NCBI RefSeq assembly: GCF_031851795.1
Contig: NZ_CP134696.1
Location: 1-64,000, forward strand
Reading direction: 5' to 3'
DNA length: 64,000 nt
Source: Pontibacter sp. G13
GTDB taxonomy: Bacteria; Bacteroidota; Bacteroidia; J057
Part shown: piece by piece, positions 1 through 10,627 of the stretch
How positions within the stretch are numbered: position 1 is the stretch's first letter
How the letters are laid out: each line of letters begins with the position of its first letter
Notes under the pieces: generated by a model
What the model saw: only the letters and a program-made list of their open reading frames with translations
Databases searched by the model: none
Told to the model about the DNA's origin: nothing
Made by a program: the position numbers and the translations under genes

Positions 1-1449
1 ATGACAGCGACCTACGTTGACATATGGGATGCGTGTCTGCACCAAATACGGAACGAGATCTCTCCGCAAAGCTTTGACACTTGGTTCAAACCAATCAAGC
101 CTGTCAGACTGGAGAACATGGTCTTGACCATCGAAGTGCCTAGTCAGTTTTTCTATGAATGGCTGGAGGAGCATTATGTGGACATGTTGAAGCGAGCCAT
201 TCGGCAGTCGCTCGGCCCTGAAGGTCGTCTTGAATACTCAATTGTGGTGGATAATAGTCATTCGGCTAATGGTGCTTCTACAGTCAAGATGCCCGCATCT
301 TCTCACCATGTACCACCTACTCCCCCTTCTGCCAAGCACTCGGCCAATCCCAATCTTCAAAAGGACAAACCGATCCCTAATCCATTTGTGATTCCAGGGA
401 TCAGGAAGTTTGAGATAGAATCCAACCTAAACGCTAGCTTTACCTTTGACAACTTGATCGAAGGGGATTGCAACCGTTTGGCACGGGCTGCAGGATTTGC
501 CGTGGCCAACAAGCCCGGTACAACTTCCTACAATCCATTGTTTATCTACAGTGGGGTAGGATTGGGGAAAACACACCTCTTGCAGGCAATTGGGAACATG
601 ATCAAGCAGAACTATCCGCAAAAGGCCGTTCTGTACGTCTCTTCTGAGCGATTCATCAACCAATTTGTCGAAGCTGTCCGTAAGGGAACAGTCAATGACT
701 TCATGAATTTCTACCAAATGATCGATGCATTGTTGGTGGATGACATTCAGTTCCTTTCTGGTAAAGAGAAGACTCAGGACAACTTCTTCCACGTTTTCAA
801 TCACCTTAGACAATCAGGCAAGCAGATTGTATTGGCATCCGACCGTTCACCGAATGATATGGAAGGAGTTGAGGAACGACTGCTTTCCCGGTTCAAATGG
901 GGCCTGAACGCCAATTTGGATGTACCAGCGTATGAGACTCGAAAGGAGATTCTTAGAAGCAAGATGTACCAAAATGGCATTCAACTTCCTGAAGATGTCG
1001 TGGAATATATCGCGCATAATGTGACCACCAATATTCGTGAGTTAGAAGGCGCATTGATCTCCTTGTTGGCCCAAAGCTCCCTCAATCGACGTGAGGTTGA
1101 TATTGATCTGACCAAGTCAATGCTCCAGCGATTCACAGATCAGATTAGTCGCGAGATCACGATTGATGCGATTCAGAAGATCGTTGGAGAGCATTTTTCT
1201 ATAGATGTCGAGTTGATGAAAGCCAAAACGCGGAAGCGGGACATTGTTCAGGCTCGTCAAATTGCCATGTATTTTTCCAAAGAGCTCACCCGTCATTCCC
1301 TTAAATCCATCGGATTGCACTTTGGTGGCAGAGATCACTCAACGGTCATTCATGCGCTTCAGACTGTCAATGACCTAGTTGCTACAGACAAATTCTTCAA
1401 GCAGAATGTCGCTGAAATTCGGAAACGGATTTCTATGGAATTGACTTGA
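1..1449 (+). CDS. dnaA: Chromosomal replication initiator DnaA
   Basis: This 482-residue protein is the AAA+ ATPase that opens the chromosomal origin. An N-terminal DnaB/DiaA-interaction domain (about 1-80) leads into a variable proline-rich linker (about 85-130). The AAA+ core carries Walker A SGVGLGKT at 184-191 and Walker B LLVDDIQ at 244-250. The C-terminal helix-turn-helix ends with the DnaA-box recognition motif GGRDHSTVIHA. Length and domain order are normal for the family. The gene starts at the first base of the window, so its promoter is not visible and the contig was probably rotated to this point. I saw no cluster of TTATCCACA-like boxes just downstream, so the origin is not placed here. 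A strong hairpin follows the stop codon. Confidence 0.98.
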   Translation: MTATYVDIWDACLHQIRNEISPQSFDTWFKPIKPVRLENMVLTIEVPSQFFYEWLEEHYVDMLKRAIRQSLGPEGRLEYSIVVDNSHSANGASTVKMPASSHHVPPTPPSAKHSANPNLQKDKPIPNPFVIPGIRKFEIESNLNASFTFDNLIEGDCNRLARAAGFAVANKPGTTSYNPLFIYSGVGLGKTHLLQAIGNMIKQNYPQKAVLYVSSERFINQFVEAVRKGTVNDFMNFYQMIDALLVDDIQFLSGKEKTQDNFFHVFNHLRQSGKQIVLASDRSPNDMEGVEERLLSRFKWGLNANLDVPAYETRKEILRSKMYQNGIQLPEDVVEYIAHNVTTNIRELEGALISLLAQSSLNRREVDIDLTKSMLQRFTDQISREITIDAIQKIVGEHFSIDVELMKAKTRKRDIVQARQIAMYFSKELTRHSLKSIGLHFGGRDHSTVIHALQTVNDLVATDKFFKQNVAEIRKRISMELT

Positions 1450-2299: not shown

Positions 2300-2319
2300 T
2301 TTTTAGACAAGTCTAAAAA
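2300..2319 (+). promoter_or_regulatory. Palindromic operator, candidate DtxR/MntR-family site
   Basis: TTTTTAGACAAGTCTAAAAA is a perfect 9-bp inverted repeat (2300-2308 and 2311-2319) with a 2-bp centre. It lies 70 bp before the start of a transporter operon that itself encodes a DtxR-type regulator domain. Its TTAG...CTAA half-sites resemble those of known DtxR/MntR boxes. Assignment as that regulator's operator is inference. Confidence 0.6.
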
Positions 2320-2334
2320 ACTTTTTCAATGGGC

Positions 2335-2364
2335 TTGAAAATGATTTCCAGTGTGACTAATTTG
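2335..2364 (+). promoter_or_regulatory. Candidate promoter of the metal-transport operon
   Basis: A TTG at 2335-2337 stands 20 bp before TAATTTG at 2358-2364. This approximates the Bacteroidota pair TTG / TAnnTTTG, with one base missing in the -7 element. The palindrome at 2300-2319 sits just upstream of it. Confidence 0.4.
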
Positions 2365-2389
2365 CTCATCAATTGTAATTGAGCATTGT

Positions 2390-4153
2390 ATGAAACCGCT
2401 TACACAATGGATTTTATCGTGGATATTTCTCTGGATATGCAGCGTCCAATTCCTTGCTGCCCAGACCGCCGATAGGCCCATGGTATTGGCTACGACGTCA
2501 TTTATTGCAGACTTGGCGCGTGAAGTAGCTGGATCAGAAGCTCATGTAGTGTCTTTGATGCCTATTGGAGGCGATCCCCATGTTTATGATCCTGTGCCTG
2601 GAGATGCCAAGAAGATTGCGGAAGCGGATCTGATCTTGAAGAATGGCTTGACCCTAGAGGGTTGGCTGGACGAAATGATCGATAATAGCGGCACGCAAGC
2701 TGAAGTCGTGACCCTAACTGAAGGGATCAGTCCGATAAAGAGTGCCGATCACGAAAATGCTTATGATCCACACTGCTGGATGGATGTCCAGTATGCCATG
2801 ATTTATGTGCAAAATATTTGTGATGCATTGATTCGCCTTGATCCGGACAATCGAGGAACTTATCAGGCTAATGCAGAGACCTATTTAGCCAAACTACAGG
2901 CATTAGATACTTGGATTGCCGACACCCTCTCTCTAATTCCTGCCAATCATCGAGTGATAGCGACTTCCCATGATGCGTTCAGATACTTTGGAAATCGCTA
3001 CGGCATGCGAGTAGTTTCTATTCTTGGAACAAGTACCGATGCCGAACCTCGCATCGAGGACTATCTCAATATGCTCAACCTCATTGAGCGAGACAGCATC
3101 CCCGCCATCTTCATTGAGTCTACCATCAACCCCAAAAAGCTTCAACAGATGGCCAAGGATAAGGGCATCAAGGTTGGGGGGAAACTCTTTGCGGATTCCT
3201 TGGGAGACGAGGAAAGCGGCGCCGATACGTACCTGAATATGATGCGGCAAAACACGAGGCTCCTTGTAGCCGGCCTGCAAAACAAAATCGGTCTCAAACG
3301 GGAAGAGGACTCGCTTTCCTTTCTTTGGGTCATGCTGGCGGCTTTTGTGGCTAGTTTTCTTCTGGTTATGTTTTTTGTCCATCCGAAAGGCAAGGACCCT
3401 AAAAGCTGGGAGAACTATCAATTGTCCATTGACAATCTCAATGTGTCCTATGGCAAGAAAGTCGCCTTGAGCAATGTCCATTTGAACATCCAACCGGGAC
3501 AAGTCTATGGGCTAATTGGAGGAAATGGATCTGGTAAATCTACCATGATGAAATCCATTTTAGGACTTTTGGAACCCGATACCGGCTCGATCCTGCTGAA
3601 TGGCCAACCCATAGATGAGGTCAGGAAATACATCTCCTACATTCCCCAAAAAGAGGAAATCGACTGGACTTTTCCCGCGACAGTTTTGGATGTAGTCCTG
3701 ATGGGAAGATACCCACACCGTAGCCTTTTCACTAGGCTCGGAGATCAGGATCGGGCAATTGCACAGGAAGCCATCAAGAAATTGGGAATCTGGGATCTCC
3801 GAAATAAGCAAATTGGAGAACTCAGCGGCGGCCAGCAGCAACGTGCTTTTATAGCTCGGGCCTTGGCACAACAAGCAGAGGTATATCTCTTTGATGAACC
3901 ATTTGTGGGAGTTGACATCACCTCGGAAACCAAAATTATGGAAATCATCCGTGGATTGGCCGAAGACGGGAAAATGGTGATCATCATTCATCATGACCTT
4001 GCCAAAATTCAGGAGTATTTCGACCAGCTTATCATGCTCAATCAGCATGTCGTTGCAGCTGGTCCCACTGCATCTGTCTTTCACGATGAAAATCTCCGCA
4101 AAACCTATGGCGGAAAACTGACCATTCTTCAAGAAGTAGAACACTATCGCTGA
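2390..4153 (+). CDS. Metal ABC transporter: substrate-binding protein fused to ATPase
   Basis: The 587-residue protein joins two normally separate parts of a cluster A-I (ZnuA/PsaA-type) metal importer. Residues 1-24 form a signal peptide. Residues 29-305 are the periplasmic binding protein, with metal ligands readable as His64 (DPHVYDP), His128 (DPHCWMD), Glu243 (FIEST) and Asp269 (FADSL). The His-His-Glu-Asp set and the absence of a His-rich loop match manganese-type PsaA/MntC rather than ZnuA. A transmembrane helix at about 310-330 crosses the membrane. Residues 344-587 are a cytoplasmic ABC ATPase: Walker A GGNGSGKS 377-384, signature LSGGQ 478-482, Walker B VYLFDEP 498-504, H-loop His534/535. 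The topology is consistent. The permease gene begins 5 bp downstream. Mn is favoured over Zn or Fe, but that is inference. Confidence 0.93.
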   Translation: MKPLTQWILSWIFLWICSVQFLAAQTADRPMVLATTSFIADLAREVAGSEAHVVSLMPIGGDPHVYDPVPGDAKKIAEADLILKNGLTLEGWLDEMIDNSGTQAEVVTLTEGISPIKSADHENAYDPHCWMDVQYAMIYVQNICDALIRLDPDNRGTYQANAETYLAKLQALDTWIADTLSLIPANHRVIATSHDAFRYFGNRYGMRVVSILGTSTDAEPRIEDYLNMLNLIERDSIPAIFIESTINPKKLQQMAKDKGIKVGGKLFADSLGDEESGADTYLNMMRQNTRLLVAGLQNKIGLKREEDSLSFLWVMLAAFVASFLLVMFFVHPKGKDPKSWENYQLSIDNLNVSYGKKVALSNVHLNIQPGQVYGLIGGNGSGKSTMMKSILGLLEPDTGSILLNGQPIDEVRKYISYIPQKEEIDWTFPATVLDVVLMGRYPHRSLFTRLGDQDRAIAQEAIKKLGIWDLRNKQIGELSGGQQQRAFIARALAQQAEVYLFDEPFVGVDITSETKIMEIIRGLAEDGKMVIIIHHDLAKIQEYFDQLIMLNQHVVAAGPTASVFHDENLRKTYGGKLTILQEVEHYR

Positions 4154-4158
4154 TCATC

Positions 4159-5694
4159 ATGGAGCAATTGATCGATATATTTTCCTACGATTTTGCTGTG
4201 AGGGCTTTCTGGACATCTGCCATGGTGGGAATCACTTGTGGCGTACTCGGATGCTTCATCTTCCTCAAGAATATGTCCTTGATTGGAGATGCGCTTTCAC
4301 ATGCGATTTTACCCGGGGTAGTGGGAGGCTTCATGGTCTCAGGCGGAGCAAGTCTCGTTGGCTTGTTTACCGGTTCTGTATTGGCGGGATTGATTGCCGC
4401 GGTATTGATCACCTGGATACAAAGGAATGTACAGACGCGGGAAGATGCCGCTATTGGAATCGTATTCACCTCTATGTTTGCTATTGGAATCATGGGTATT
4501 TCATGGCTCACACGTCAGGAAGGGGTGCATTTGGACATGCGGGATTTTCTTTTCGGGAATGTTTTGGGGATCTCAGATTCCGATATTTGGATGACGCTTT
4601 GCATCATGCTCTTCACCTTGGTGGCCATCGGGGTATTCTTTAGATATTTCTTTATCACCACTTTCCATCCAGTGATGTCACAGGCGATGGGTATTTCTGC
4701 AGGGACGATGCATTATTTCCTGATGCTACTCATATCCTTGGCGGTGGTGGCTTCCTTACAATCTGTAGGGGTCATATTGGTGGTGGCCATGCTGATCACC
4801 CCCGCTTCAACCGCTTTTCTGCTGACGAAACGCCTATCCATCATGCTGGTTATTTCCGCCATTGTCGGGCTAGCATCTACCACCATCGGATTTTTGGTGG
4901 CCGTCATATATGAAACCACTCCAGGGCCTGCGATGACAGTTGTAGCATCGCTTTTCTTTCTTTTGGCAGTATTGCTTTCCCCTTCAAAAGGGCTTCTTTG
5001 GAGAAGCCTAAGGCGAAAAAGAGCTCAAAATCGTGTCCTCCAAGAAGATATCCTCAAGCACGCAGTGAGTCTAGCCGAGCATGGAAATCTCGAATTGAAG
5101 GCACTCAAACAGGCAGTAGGCGCTTCTGAATTAAGTTTCCAGAGAGGCTTGAATGCGTTGAAACGAAAGCAGGAAATCATCAGCAAAAGCGGAAAAATAT
5201 CCCTCACCAGCAAAGGCACCAAGATCGGATACGATCTTATCCGGGCCCATAGGCTTTGGGAAGCATATCTCGTCAAGGAAGTGGGACTATCCTCAGACCA
5301 GATTCATAATCCAGCAGAAGATGTGGAACACATCATCCCTGCTCATCTGGTGGAGAAGGTTGCCCAACATTTGGGACACCCCGAGAGAGACCCTCATGGA
5401 TCTATTATTCCGCCCGTTCAAGGCACTGTATCGCCCAATATCTTTGACTTGGCAGTTGGCGACCGGGCTTTTGTCTACGGAACACAAGCTCATCCATTGG
5501 CTGCCAGCTTACTATGGAATCAGCATATCGAACCCGAAACCCGATTTGAATTATTGAAGAAAGAAAAGGCATTTGCTGAAATTTCCTTCGACGGCAAAAA
5601 AATCCAAATCGAAAAGGCAATCGCTGAGAATATTCGTATATACCGCCATCAACGGCATTCCCATACGAATGAAACACACCAAGCTGACGATTGA
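4159..5694 (+). CDS. Metal ABC permease fused to DtxR/MntR-type regulator
   Basis: The 511-residue protein has an N-terminal ABC-3 family permease (about 12-275, eight or nine hydrophobic segments, motif LIGDALSHAILPG at 41-53). A basic linker (281-292) leads to a full DtxR-like module: winged helix (about 293-360), dimerisation and metal-binding region containing HRLWEAYL (364-371), QIH (381-383), EHIIPAHL (390-397) and LGHPERDPHG (405-414), then an SH3/FeoA-like end (about 425-490) and a His-containing tail. It forms an operon with the binding protein-ATPase fusion 5 bp upstream, and together they make a complete importer. A permease-DtxR fusion is known in Chlamydia (YtgCR), where the repressor half is released by cleavage. 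Whether that happens here cannot be seen. Confidence 0.93.
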   Translation: MEQLIDIFSYDFAVRAFWTSAMVGITCGVLGCFIFLKNMSLIGDALSHAILPGVVGGFMVSGGASLVGLFTGSVLAGLIAAVLITWIQRNVQTREDAAIGIVFTSMFAIGIMGISWLTRQEGVHLDMRDFLFGNVLGISDSDIWMTLCIMLFTLVAIGVFFRYFFITTFHPVMSQAMGISAGTMHYFLMLLISLAVVASLQSVGVILVVAMLITPASTAFLLTKRLSIMLVISAIVGLASTTIGFLVAVIYETTPGPAMTVVASLFFLLAVLLSPSKGLLWRSLRRKRAQNRVLQEDILKHAVSLAEHGNLELKALKQAVGASELSFQRGLNALKRKQEIISKSGKISLTSKGTKIGYDLIRAHRLWEAYLVKEVGLSSDQIHNPAEDVEHIIPAHLVEKVAQHLGHPERDPHGSIIPPVQGTVSPNIFDLAVGDRAFVYGTQAHPLAASLLWNQHIEPETRFELLKKEKAFAEISFDGKKIQIEKAIAENIRIYRHQRHSHTNETHQADD

Positions 5695-6763
5695 GCGACT
5701 TAAATACGAACCTTCTCTGGTCCTGCTTTCGTGCCAGACAGGAAGCAGGACCTATGGTCTTCACCATGCACAATCTGACCATGACGAAAAGGGCATTTTC
5801 CTGTTGCCGAAGCTTCAATTTCTAGGGACGAATTATCAGGAGCAATGCTCGGATAAGCGAAACGATGTAGTCTACTATGAACTAGGACGTTTTGTCGAAT
5901 TGGGCCTAAAGAGCAATCCCGGGATCATCGAGATGCTTTTCACCCCCAACGAAAGCATCTACGCCCGTAATCCCATTCTTGACCATCTGAATCCACATTG
6001 GTTTATCTCCCAAAAATGCAAACAGACTTTCGGAGGATATGCTAAAGCACAGATTCAGAAGGCACAAGGACTCAATAAGAAAATCGTCAATCCATTCCCC
6101 AAAGTTCGAAAGACTCCGCTGGAATTTTGTTGGATTCAACAGGATGCCAACACCATACCGCTTACCTCTTGGCTTCAGCAGACAGGGAGGGATCAGGCAA
6201 AATGTGGGCTCGTCAATTTGCCGCACATGAAGCATGTATTTGCCCTCTTTTACCCAGAAAATGATCTCCCATCTCCCTTTAAAGGAATCATCCAGAGCGA
6301 AAAATCTACGAGTCTTTCGCTCTCATCCATTCCAAAAGGATCGTCGGCAGTGGCGACGCTTTTTTTCAATGAAGATGGCTATCAGACCTACTGCAAGAAC
6401 CACCGCGAATACTGGAAATGGCGTAAGTTGAGAAATGAGGCTCGCTATCAGGTGGGAGGATCAGAATCACTTGGATATGATACCAAGAACATGATGCACA
6501 CCTTCAGGCTTCTATTGATGGCCAAGGAAATTGCGGAGCATGGAAGGCCGGAAGTGTTTCGGCAGGACCGGGAATTCCTTTTGGGGATCAGAAATGGCGA
6601 ATATTCCTATGAGGAATTGAGTCAGATGGCCGAAGAATTGGAATCGGAAACCCATCTCGCATTTGAGCGATCGAATCTTCCCGAGCATCCCAATAAGGAA
6701 AAGATCGTTCGAGCGCTTGTCGAAATGCGAAGTGAATTATACCAAATCTCCCTCAATGATTAA
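5669..6763 (+). CDS. Nucleotidyltransferase, RlaP/YcgL-like (DNA polymerase beta superfamily)
   Basis: The protein is 364 residues from ATG 5669, the first ATG that gives the expected N-terminus MKHTKLTIERLKYEP. The polymerase-beta fold signature is clear: GSRTYG at 25-30 (the GS motif) followed by SDHDEKGIF at 36-44, giving the two metal-binding aspartates 37 and 39. This matches PF10127, a family named for its association with RNA repair, whose substrates are not established. The start overlaps the end of the permease-regulator gene by 26 bp in another frame, so translation may be coupled to the transporter operon. No RNA ligase gene is adjacent. The family call is firm and the function open. 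Confidence 0.85.
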   Translation: MKHTKLTIERLKYEPSLVLLSCQTGSRTYGLHHAQSDHDEKGIFLLPKLQFLGTNYQEQCSDKRNDVVYYELGRFVELGLKSNPGIIEMLFTPNESIYARNPILDHLNPHWFISQKCKQTFGGYAKAQIQKAQGLNKKIVNPFPKVRKTPLEFCWIQQDANTIPLTSWLQQTGRDQAKCGLVNLPHMKHVFALFYPENDLPSPFKGIIQSEKSTSLSLSSIPKGSSAVATLFFNEDGYQTYCKNHREYWKWRKLRNEARYQVGGSESLGYDTKNMMHTFRLLLMAKEIAEHGRPEVFRQDREFLLGIRNGEYSYEELSQMAEELESETHLAFERSNLPEHPNKEKIVRALVEMRSELYQISLND

Positions 6764-8335: not shown

Positions 8336-10627
8336 TTAATGAATCACCAGCAGTTTTTTCGTGGCAAATACCTCATCAGTGGAAACCAGTACGGTGTAAA
8401 TTCCGCTCTGGAATTGCTGAGTCTGAATCTGGCGGGTCTGCAATCCAGGAGTGATAGCAGAAACCTCATTGTACACTTCCTGACCAGCTGCATTAAAGAT
8501 GCGGATAGACACATCGGAAGCCTTTTCTAGCTCCAGTTCGATTTGCGCCATTTCACGGGCAGGGTTGGGGTACAGGGAGAACAGATTCTGATTTTGCGGA
8601 AGATCGTCAATGGATACCGTGCGTTGTGGCAATGCAAAGGTGTTTCCATCCACATCCGCAACCCAAAGTCCGAATGCTGGCTGGTCTCCTGAGAAGAATC
8701 CGGAAGCAAAAACGAACAGGGAGTTTCCGTCGAGTCCAGTCAAATCGGCATCATAGGAAGCGACAATATTGAGACTATCTTCAGCAGGAGACAAATTGAC
8801 AATCAGCGCAGTAGCTGGGGCGTTTACGTAGTCGGAGAATCCAGTATACGCTACATCATCTACAATTACACCAACTCCGTCGACTGATACGTCTACCGCA
8901 GGAGCATCTGGAGATCCGTGGTGAATCAAGAGATCTACGCCTGTATCGGCGGATTCGCGAACGTTATCTACCGCCAACAATGTGAATGGAGTGGTTTGAT
9001 TGCCAACTACTCCGCTTGCAACAGCGATGTAAGTTTGTCCATTCTCCAATGTTACAGGGAAGTTGACCAAGGTATCGCCAGCGCCAGTAGAGTTGTCCAA
9101 AGCAACACCGATGTTCAATTCAACTTCTGCAGGAGCGTCAATGAAGGGAGTTGCGTCCCGGAAGGCGAAATTGTCAAGCAAGAGGCCGCCATTCAAGTAA
9201 ACATCAACAGTTGGCTCAGGAGAGTTATGTACAACTTGGAGGCGAGCAAGTGCAGTATCAGGGAATTCAACGATGTTTCCATCAGGCAATGCTGCGAACA
9301 ATCCGAAAGCGGGATCGCCAGGTCCGGGAGTCAGGTATCCAGATGCGAATACCAAAGCAGCTCCACCTTTCAATCCGGTCAATTCGGCCCAGTAGCTGGC
9401 AACGATGGTTTCATTGTCCATGCTAGGCGTAATATCCAGTAAGTATGCAGCAGCGGGAACCCCGGTATAGCCTGTTGCTTCTCCATAGGAGAGGTCATCT
9501 ACCAATTGAGCTACGCCTCTTGCAAATACATCTACTTCAGGTGCATCTGTCGATCCGTGGAATACAGCAAAGTCTACATTGGCCGTATCCATCGCCATTT
9601 CCTGAGCATTTTCAATGACAGAGATGGTAAATGGAGTGGCTTGATTTGTGACAATCCCGTGAGCTACAGCGATGTAAGTACCATTGTTGGCAAGTGTCAA
9701 TCCAAAGTTGGCGATGGTGTCATCTACGGACATGGAGTTGGCAGGAGCTACTCCTACTTCCAATTGAACCCCTGCAGGAACGTCGATGAAAGGAGTCGCT
9801 GTACGGAACTCGAAATCGTTGAGCAACAATCCACCATTCACGTAGACGTCAACGGTTGGAGTAGGGGAGTTGTGAACTACTTGGAGACGGGCGAGCGCCG
9901 TATCAGGAAGTTCTACCACTGCACCGCCTGGCAAAGCTGCGAACAAACCAAAAGCAGGTTCTCCAGCACCTGGTGTCAAGAAACCAGAAGCGAATACCGT
10001 AGCGGCAGAGTCAGCCAGTCCTGAAAGGTCAGCTGCATAAGTAGCAACGATGGTGCTGTTGTCATTGGCTGGCGTGATATCCAGAATGTACAGATCTGGA
10101 GCAACTGACAAGTAATCAGTGACATCTCCGAAGGCTGCGCTATCTACCAATGTTCCCACCCCACGAGCAATCACGTCTACAGCAGGTGCATCTGGTGAGC
10201 CATGTACCACCAAGAAGTCAACATCTCCAGCAGCTGAAGACGCTTCGCGTACACCGTCTTTGATGGTCAATTGGAATGGAGTAGTAGGATCGCCTACAAT
10301 TCCATTAGCCATAGCAAAGTATGTTTCGCCAGAAGTCAAGGTTACAGGGAAGTTGACCAAGGTGTCGGCAACCGATGTGCTGGTGCTCAGTGCTACCCCA
10401 ATATTCAGCTGAACGCCAGCTGGAACGGTTACAAATGGAGATGCCGTACGAAAGGCAAAATCATCCAGAGTCAGAACTCCGTTTACATACACGTCCACTG
10501 TAGGACTTGGGGAGTTGTGGATTACTTGCAAGCGAGCGGTTTGGGCGATTGCCGCTTCACATCCCAACAAGCAGATCAATCCTACGATGAGAGGATATAA
10601 CGCTTTTTTCATAGGAAAAGAATTCAT
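8336..10627 (-). CDS. Secreted DUF4397 repeat protein with type IX sorting domain
   Basis: A 763-residue secreted protein. The signal peptide spans about 1-29 (a second ATG at residue 6, MKKALYPL, is an alternative start). Three long repeats begin with ARLQV(I/V)HNSP at residues 31, 246 and 461, an exact 215-residue period. Each has two DUF4397-like halves, one opening with HNSPxPTVDVYxNG and the other with (V/F/H)HGS(P/T)DAPxVDV. Residues about 684-763 form a type IX secretion C-terminal sorting domain (LYPNPA, then KASDVSIRIFNAAGQEV, then SGIYTVLV, ending KKLLVIH). The protein should therefore cross the outer membrane and be attached to or released from the cell surface. DUF4397 units are beta-rich, and adhesion or surface structure is a plausible role. 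A duplicated copy of the gene's 3' end lies downstream. Confidence 0.92.
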   Translation of the reverse strand: MNSFPMKKALYPLIVGLICLLGCEAAIAQTARLQVIHNSPSPTVDVYVNGVLTLDDFAFRTASPFVTVPAGVQLNIGVALSTSTSVADTLVNFPVTLTSGETYFAMANGIVGDPTTPFQLTIKDGVREASSAAGDVDFLVVHGSPDAPAVDVIARGVGTLVDSAAFGDVTDYLSVAPDLYILDITPANDNSTIVATYAADLSGLADSAATVFASGFLTPGAGEPAFGLFAALPGGAVVELPDTALARLQVVHNSPTPTVDVYVNGGLLLNDFEFRTATPFIDVPAGVQLEVGVAPANSMSVDDTIANFGLTLANNGTYIAVAHGIVTNQATPFTISVIENAQEMAMDTANVDFAVFHGSTDAPEVDVFARGVAQLVDDLSYGEATGYTGVPAAAYLLDITPSMDNETIVASYWAELTGLKGGAALVFASGYLTPGPGDPAFGLFAALPDGNIVEFPDTALARLQVVHNSPEPTVDVYLNGGLLLDNFAFRDATPFIDAPAEVELNIGVALDNSTGAGDTLVNFPVTLENGQTYIAVASGVVGNQTTPFTLLAVDNVRESADTGVDLLIHHGSPDAPAVDVSVDGVGVIVDDVAYTGFSDYVNAPATALIVNLSPAEDSLNIVASYDADLTGLDGNSLFVFASGFFSGDQPAFGLWVADVDGNTFALPQRTVSIDDLPQNQNLFSLYPNPAREMAQIELELEKASDVSIRIFNAAGQEVYNEVSAITPGLQTRQIQTQQFQSGIYTVLVSTDEVFATKKLLVIH
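8624..10537 (-). repeat. Three tandem 645-bp coding repeats
   Basis: Units correspond to residues 31-245 (10537-9893), 246-460 (9892-9248) and 461-668 (9247-8624). The first two have identical length, 215 codons. Unit boundaries were set at the shared ARLQV motif. DNA similarity between units is visible, for example in the HNSP-PTVDVYxNG region. Confidence 0.85.

Follow-up and report, generated by a model that had tools for sequence, protein, structure and literature searches.

How is a metal-sensing domain used when it is built into the importer of the metal itself? Two adjoining + strand open reading frames (ORFs) of Pontibacter sp. G13 raise this question, at positions 2390-4153 and 4159-5694 of a 64,000-nucleotide stretch of contig NZ_CP134696.1 (hereafter the window, to which all coordinates refer). 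By their domain content, the two genes together hold every part of a metal ATP-binding cassette (ABC) importer, as two fused polypeptides, the second of which ends in a DtxR-type domain. The reading that we prefer, and on balance think probable, is that they form an importer for a divalent transition metal in which the DtxR-type domain on the permease would be a metal sensor in cis that gates import, while a separate DtxR regulator would read the operator-like box in front of the genes. Domains were called with Pfam profiles and all structures of the window proteins are AlphaFold2 models. The features of the two genes are as follows.

2390..4153, + strand: gene 1, fusion of binding protein, transmembrane helix and ATPase (587 amino acids; ORF, Pfam, model)
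2480..3280, + strand: cluster A-I metal-binding protein domain, residues 31-297, with predicted ligands His64, His128, His194 and Asp269 (PF01297, model, ligand alignment)
3314..3379, + strand: single transmembrane helix, residues 309-330 (model helix; hydropathy 2.67 and flanking charges)
3422..4114, + strand: ABC ATPase domain, residues 345-575, with Walker A, Q-loop, signature, Walker B and H-loop (PF00005, motifs, model)
4159..5694, + strand: gene 2, fusion of ABC-3 permease and DtxR-type domain (511 amino acids; ORF, Pfam, model)
4159..4983, + strand: ABC-3 permease, residues 1-275, with metal-path triad Asp44/His48/Asp96 (PF00950, model, alignment to PsaC)
4981..5049, + strand: helical linker of 22 residues, Pro275 to Asp297, which runs straight into DtxR helix 1 in the model (model helix 279-307; homologue counts)
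5047..5205, + strand: winged-helix part of the fused DtxR-type domain, with the fold kept in the model and an unconserved recognition helix (PF01325 unmatched; alignment columns; matched-divergence test; fold)
5206..5412, + strand: metal-binding and dimerisation part (Fe_dep_repr_C), with His364, Glu368, His383, Glu387, Glu390 and His391 as well as Asp297 of helix 1 (PF02742, ligand columns)
5452..5649, + strand: SH3/FeoA-like C-terminal part, boundaries approximate (model strands 436-496)

Two fused genes with the parts of a metal importer

All three protein families of cluster A-I importers were matched. In gene 1, the ZnuA profile covers residues 32-294 (E = 8.8e-84) and the ABC_tran profile residues 360-505 (E = 2.3e-33), behind a start that resembles a signal peptide. 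In gene 2, the ABC-3 profile covers residues 9-272 (E = 1.8e-69) and is followed by Fe_dep_repr_C (PF02742) at residues 350-418 (E = 5.4e-22). The model of gene 1 (predicted local distance difference test score, pLDDT, 87.8; predicted template modelling score, pTM, 0.52) joins its two domains by a single helix, residues 309-330, which is predicted to lie in the membrane with its N-terminus outside and its C-terminus inside. This bears out an earlier note, made from the sequence alone, that had described gene 1 as a binding protein linked through one transmembrane helix to an ABC ATPase; its wider proposal, a two-polypeptide importer of matching topology, likewise agrees with the three families found and with the recurrence of the pairing in other genomes. 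Across the genome, the search found a single ABC-3 permease and a single ZnuA-type binding protein, together with two DtxR-type metal domains, the fused one and that of a free-standing 238-residue ORF at C1:7198877.

The catalytic and metal-path residues are conserved. In the alignment of gene 1 homologues (A1, 13 rows), the ATPase residues G377, N379, G380, G382, K383, S384, Q420, S479-Q482, D502, E503, H534 and H535 are invariant, and the nearest solved relative of the modelled ATPase domain is PsaB (Z 33). The model of the binding domain matches AztC and MntC (Z 37), and its solved relatives include Mn, Zn and Fe binding proteins. The earlier note had named His64, His128, Glu243 and Asp269 as ligands. 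Three of these hold, being invariant, with His194, in A1 and in a further alignment (A3, 20 rows); Glu243 was ruled out as the third ligand, as it is His194 that aligns with the third ligand of AztC (a His) and of MntA and MntC (a Glu in both). Because of this alignment, and because the spacing of 75 residues between His194 and Asp269 equals that of E205 and D280 in PsaA (residue names from PDB titles), we place the metal site at His64/His128/His194/Asp269. The metal is most likely Mn2+, with Zn2+ and Fe2+ as further candidates. Three gene 1 homologues (L110, L112 and L113) are longer, at 681-725 residues, than the usual 570-630.

For the permease half of gene 2 (whole model: pLDDT 79.1, pTM 0.64), the nearest solved structure is PsaC (Z 26 over 192 residues). 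Asp44, His48 and Asp96 fall in invariant columns of alignment A4 (19 rows) and match the Asp-His-Asp triad that, according to PMC8487065, a Bacillus MntC requires to transport Mn.

The fused domain keeps its metal ligands and seems to lack the DNA-reading signature

Permeases with a fused DtxR-type domain are of two types. Type A mostly stands in a four-gene operon of binding protein, ATPase, permease:DtxR and second permease, whereas type B, the lineage to which gene 2 belongs, comes with a single permease. We compared the fused domains of 56 type-B and seven type-A proteins with 76 free-standing DtxR domains. The positions that correspond to H79, E83, H98, E105 and H106 of DtxR (PDB titles name mutants at H79, M10 and C102) are kept in 56/56 type-B fusions. 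The C102 position holds Glu in 45 of them and Asp in 11, and the ligand position in helix 1 is Asp in 55/56, against Asn in 70/76 free-standing domains.

The recognition helix behaves differently. In the free-standing domains it carries a conserved Ser (73/76), Val (74/76), Asp (74/76) and Met (76/76); in the fusions the Ser, Asp and Met are unconserved and the Val position is still mostly hydrophobic. When both groups were taken at equal identity of the dimerisation domain (0.55-0.70), recognition-helix identity was 0.20 in the fused domains (bootstrap 0.18-0.22) and 0.63 in the free-standing ones (0.59-0.73). The profiles agree with this. PF01325, the DNA-binding model, matched neither gene 2 nor any of the 19 type-B and seven type-A fusions scanned, and matched 19/19 free-standing proteins, whereas PF02742 matched all three sets in full (19 type-B, 7/7 type-A, 19/19 free-standing). 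The description of gene 2 as a permease with the metal-binding and SH3-like parts of DtxR therefore stands, and the metal-binding part is recognised by its family profile; that the repressor is a full one does not stand in sequence, PF01325 being unmatched, though the fold is kept in the model. Pfam FeoA, for the C-terminal part, was matched in 9/19 aligned relatives and unmatched in the window protein. Judged by these columns and profiles, the fused domain seems to be the metal-sensing part of DtxR without its DNA-reading signature.

A linker of invariant length

From the Pro of the last permease motif (PxxG) to the metal ligand in helix 1 there are 22 residues in 63/63 fusions, a count that combines two parsings (L064 from one; four rows and L193 from the other) and comes from a script that accepts 22 if any anchor pair fits, with the Pro and Gly of the first anchor present in 56/56 type-B fusions. 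L068, below the score cut-off and outside the 63, is also fused, with 22 residues by eye. This constancy is one of length, as the mean pairwise identity of the linker is only 0.28 in type B. For contrast, the winged-helix part varies from 62 to 68 residues in type B, and the distance from the binding protein to Walker A from 79 to 137 in gene 1 homologues. In the model of gene 2, a single helix (residues 279-307) spans the linker.

In plain MntC of B. anthracis, the last helix has a cytosolic extension of 21 residues with a net charge of +5, and its truncation is reported to abolish Mn-dependent activity with membrane expression intact (PMC8487065). The unfused permease of L234 stops 22 residues from the PxxG Pro (Pro counted), where the DtxR part would begin. 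Taken together, the fixed linker and the MntC data suggest that the sensor is joined in a fixed register to a helix that matters for transport in a relative. The L234 locus itself (L234:1447-2412) has the permease followed by another ORF and no DtxR domain, as if the sensor had been lost cleanly and the C-terminal helix retained.

An operator-like box and its probable reader

The region upstream of gene 1 holds one further feature.

2300..2319, no strand: perfect palindrome TTTTTAGAC-AA-GTCTAAAAA = TTTTTAGACAAGTCTAAAAA, operator-like, 70 bases before the first start codon

Within it, at 2302-2317, lies the box TTTAGRYNNRYCTAAA. The pattern TTTTAGRYNNRYCTAAAA has only one site without mismatch in the 7.67 Mb genome, namely this palindrome. 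At 0 mismatches, TTTAGRYNNRYCTAAA was found upstream of 35/49 operons that start with a free-standing DtxR gene, 9/24 that start with a fused gene 1 and have no local DtxR, 23/35 lone permease:DtxR genes, 1/2 operons that start with a plain permease and 0/1 other. Allowing at most one mismatch raised the counts to 44/49, 15/24 and 28/35 for the first three groups, with 7/19 for operons with a separate binding protein. Shuffled controls of the upstream box gave 0.0 at 0 mismatches and at most 0.07 at one; for the window itself, 13/100 shuffles had a site at up to two mismatches. The box also precedes four compact modules whose permease has no DtxR domain (L060, L063, L067 and L071), at 0, 1, 2 and 2 mismatches.

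The most likely reader of the box would be a free-standing, MntR-like regulator of the DtxR type: the box stays the same while the fused recognition helix changes, it is found where there is no fused domain, and it stands in front of genes for free-standing regulators. A free-standing DtxR was found in 10/10 genomes with both fusions; none was found in G016 (96% complete) or in the incomplete G018, both with type-A fusions. A wider regulon in the genome of the window was looked for and rejected, as there was no other site at 0 mismatches and the sole site at one mismatch lies near an ankyrin-like ORF (by eye). Genome-wide hits at up to two mismatches are meaningless because the pattern is rarer there than its reversed control (16 vs 58; 7 vs 66 for a shorter pattern).

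Three loci (L097, L103 and L143) are operons of a free-standing DtxR, a membrane-anchored binding protein and an ATPase; in the same genomes, a permease:DtxR gene lies elsewhere under the same kind of box (L209, L225 and L207, respectively).

A proposed brake on import and its alternatives

In the arrangement that we propose, two copies of gene 2 would form a homodimeric permease, and two copies of gene 1 would dock their ATPase domains below it, with the two binding domains held above on transmembrane tethers. Transcription would be under the separate free-standing MntR-like regulator at the 2302-2317 box. The permease homodimer would bring the two sensor domains together, and cytosolic metal would fill the site through which the dimerisation domain is linked to helix 1 (Asp297), so that helix 1 moves. 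Because helix 1 is continuous with the C-terminal cytosolic helix of the permease, this movement could stall the transport cycle: a trans-inhibition, acting as a post-translational brake when cytosolic metal is high.

Several observations weigh against this reading. The His3Asp site resembles AztC as much as it does Mn-type proteins, and the genome also carries one NRAMP-type gene, both of which bear on Mn2+ as the metal. In the four compact modules with a DtxR-less permease, the domain is dispensable. The model preserves the winged-helix fold (Z 18.3, 132 residues, 2.1 Å to DR2539) and the recognition helix is more basic in the fusions than in free-standing proteins (+2.2 vs +1.2), so some contact of the fused domain with nucleic acid is possible. 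The pTM of 0.64 leaves the domain placement in gene 2 uncertain, and the continuous helix is a model prediction. As to the box, the pattern was first noticed in some of the loci later counted, it is rarer in operons with a separate binding protein (4/19 at 0 and 8/19 at up to two mismatches), and G016, with its type-A fusion and no free-standing DtxR found, has no good box. Lastly, PMC7755916 and PMC5599777 report from experiment that the homologous permease-DtxR fusion of Chlamydia is a repressor after cleavage.

The Chlamydia precedent is also the ground on which the earlier note had likened the fused part to YtgR: the DtxR part would be cut off, dimerise with metal and repress the operon. 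The kept fold, the operator-like palindrome and the lack of any other DtxR found in G016 fit this alternative as well, yet we judge it unlikely. The recognition helix is unconserved while the box is conserved, PF01325 is matched in 0/19 type-B fusions, every genome with both fusions has a free-standing DtxR-type protein (10/10), and the operator persists in front of four modules that have no domain to release. The linker, invariant in length and helical in the model, is not a loose cleavable stretch, and its fixed length speaks against a cleavage that sets a repressor free. Much the same sequence evidence tells against an uncut domain that binds the box while still on the permease, by analogy with membrane-anchored LacI. 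This option was raised for YtgC in PMC5599777 and would suit the basic recognition helix; with the box also preceding four modules whose permease lacks the domain, it is very improbable.

Other alternatives leave DNA aside. The domain might take the ion from the permease exit as an acceptor or buffer and hand it on, or might only strengthen the permease dimer, as the kept ligands and its position at the cytosolic end of the permease would allow. This is improbable in our view, as such a role has no need for a linker fixed at 22 residues, and the same cassette beside FeoB-type genes (below) is not on a permease. That the domain is a decaying relic without function could explain why it is missing from the four compact modules and from L234, in which the permease stops at the point where the DtxR part would start. 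We give this hardly any credence, as five ligand positions are invariant in 56/56 type-B fusions and the fused dimerisation domain has a mean identity of 0.61.

The same cassette beside FeoB-type genes

In four of 395 genomes of the class, the same cassette of membrane helix, 22-residue linker and DtxR metal domain stands directly before a FeoB-type gene (L079:5185-6237, L276:4376-5395, L277:4687-5718 and L278:4280-5299; the FeoB_N profile of Pfam matches in L079 and L278, while L276 and L277 show the P-loop motif only). The protein has one membrane helix and the same PxxG-22-ED linker, then a DtxR metal domain that PF01325 does not match and either one or two FeoA domains; in 3/4 cases it is immediately preceded by a free-standing DtxR that has PF01325. 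The architecture of the cassette favours a role on transporters over one on DNA. With the cassette found on two ABC-3 permease lineages and, with FeoA domains, beside the iron importer FeoB, a membrane-bound, DNA-blind branch of the DtxR family might be a general post-translational brake for metal importers, a conjecture that we regard as close to evenly poised.

Distribution and origin of the two fusions

Both fusions recur in other Bacteroidota, in which the earlier note had suggested looking for their co-occurrence. Among 60 related genomes, the window's own included, Fe_dep_repr_C lies in a frame of at least 418 amino acids in 18, and a ZnuA domain in a frame of at least 570 in 13, or 14 with G003, where the fusion is visible in a frame cut by the contig end. 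Both fusions are present in 10/60, adjacent in nine and on different contigs in G019; the first occurs alone in 4/60 and the second alone in 8/60. The pairing is not obligatory. An assembly or frameshift artefact (assembly error being a failure that the earlier note had allowed for) or chance can be excluded because the fusions recur in many Bacteroidota genomes with varied sequence.

In a whole-phylum sample of 395 genomes, a ZnuA frame of at least 570 amino acids was found, among the matches listed, in the genome of the window only. A scan of named genomes, with patterns taken from the fused proteins, gave 154 confirmed relatives. Among the best 80 of these 154, many of them titled Saprospiraceae, binding protein and ATPase are fused in 27 and separate genes in 47, with six other. 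ABC-3 was searched in 50 of those 80 genomes and gave 47 strong matches, 44 of them in frames of 407-561 amino acids. We inspected 44 of the 47 permease loci; 42 carry a DtxR domain, and L213 and L234 do not. A 549-residue ZnuA frame in G285 (L186) was ruled out as an ATPase fusion on inspection. Outside the phylum, binding protein and ATPase are encoded by separate genes or frames in Halomonas, Microvirga and Deinococcus, in three of 10 plasmid matches listed where at least 5000 records match, which is no survey of other phyla. Three modules come from metagenome-assembled genomes titled Sphingomonadales (L112, L116 and L119); they group with Bacteroidota, and the labels are probably wrong.

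The unfused relatives suggest a route to the first fusion. A hydrophobic C-terminal helix is present in 51/54 binding proteins without ATPase (named loci and L186); of the three exceptions, one is cut by a contig end, one falls just below the cut-off and one is the distant L186. In other operon types, 0/10 binding proteins have such a helix and 9/10 have an N-terminal lipoprotein-like Cys (by eye). Because 51/54 unfused relatives are already anchored and the ATPase gene usually lies directly 3' of the gene of the anchored binding protein, a C-terminal transmembrane anchor with a cytosolic end probably came first, and loss of the stop codon would then have joined the ATPase. On a quick tree of binding proteins (93 rows, long branches), the fused state needs six changes, at least three of them forced by starred branches.

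For the second fusion, a single origin of all fused permeases was rejected by the approximately unbiased (AU) test (p = 0.0008) on a reduced set of 29 permeases, which excluded the long-branch L068, L077 and L080, the cut-off L116, loci from L192 up and half of the other type-B fused rows. The test held four unfused type-B permeases with the fused ones. In the DtxR tree, by contrast, a branch with support 97 leaves the fused domains together on the same side (73 of 139 rows, in a short alignment that leaves 40/70 inner branches open). Since the fused permeases are not one clade while their DtxR domains group together, the sensor probably moved between permease lineages.

Neighbouring genes

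The importer lies less than 1 kb downstream of a dnaA-like ORF (by eye; window 1-1449) that begins at contig base 1. Downstream of gene 2 is an ORF for an RlaP-type nucleotidyltransferase (PF10127; window 5669-6763), whose likely start codon, the ATG at 5669, lies inside gene 2, so that the two genes share 26 bases; its longest frame has a TTG start at 5573, and translational coupling with gene 2 is possible. Further on, at 8336-10627 on the - strand, lies the gene of a secreted-looking protein of 763 residues; by eye, the protein contains roughly three internal repeats and ends in a C-terminal tail that resembles a sorting signal.

Comparison with known systems

Permease-DtxR fusions are not new: according to PMC5599777, a review, Thompson et al. 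2012 found them in 11 phyla. They have so far been read by way of Chlamydia, as repressors awaiting release, and the DtxR family is one of textbook transcription factors. We found no report in the open-licence literature of the fusion of binding protein and ATPase, or of its pairing with permease-DtxR, which is weak evidence for novelty. A DNA-blind sensor, if shown, would be a larger step than the pairing of fusions. The kept ligands, the lost DNA-reading helix, the fixed linker and the second regulator make feedback inhibition of the pump by the imported metal directly testable. If a DNA-blind branch of the DtxR family is indeed a general brake of this kind, the family does not consist of gene regulators alone, and some of the proteins annotated as fusions of permease and repressor may in fact be allosteric importers. 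With all its parts in two chains, the importer would also be easier to reconstitute and to study structurally.

With PsaBCA, MntABC, TroABCD and SitABCD, the window system shares the three families, the ATPase motifs and the Asp-His-Asp residues of the metal path; it differs from them in having binding protein and ATPase in one chain, a single permease gene and a DtxR-type domain on the permease. In Chlamydia YtgABCD, the binding protein is separate from the ATPase and there are two permeases; the type-A four-gene order in L066, L072, L073, L074 and L077 is nearer to it than the window is. Chlamydia YtgCR and gene 2 are alike in having a DtxR-type domain at the C-terminus of an ABC-3 permease. 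YtgR is reported to be a cleaved repressor, whereas the domain in the window is without a conserved recognition helix and its genome also encodes a free-standing DtxR. The regulators MntR, DR2539, ScaR, SloR and IdeR share the metal-binding and dimerisation domain, with its ligands and fold; in contrast to them, the domain of gene 2 is without a conserved recognition helix and is borne on a membrane protein via a fixed 22-residue helix.

Other ABC importers offer further parallels. Trans-inhibition is known from MetNI and the molybdate importers, whose sensing domain is on the ATPase. The window system would work alike, with a cytosolic substrate-sensing domain that stops the importer once substrate is abundant, and would differ in that this domain is on the permease and of the DtxR family. 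Titles on the MetNI and molybdate importers stand among the references of PMC10710835. OpuA and GlnPQ resemble the window system in that the binding domain is covalently part of the transporter, with a predicted two per complex. In OpuA and GlnPQ that domain is fused to the permease; in the window it is fused to the ATPase, through a transmembrane helix.

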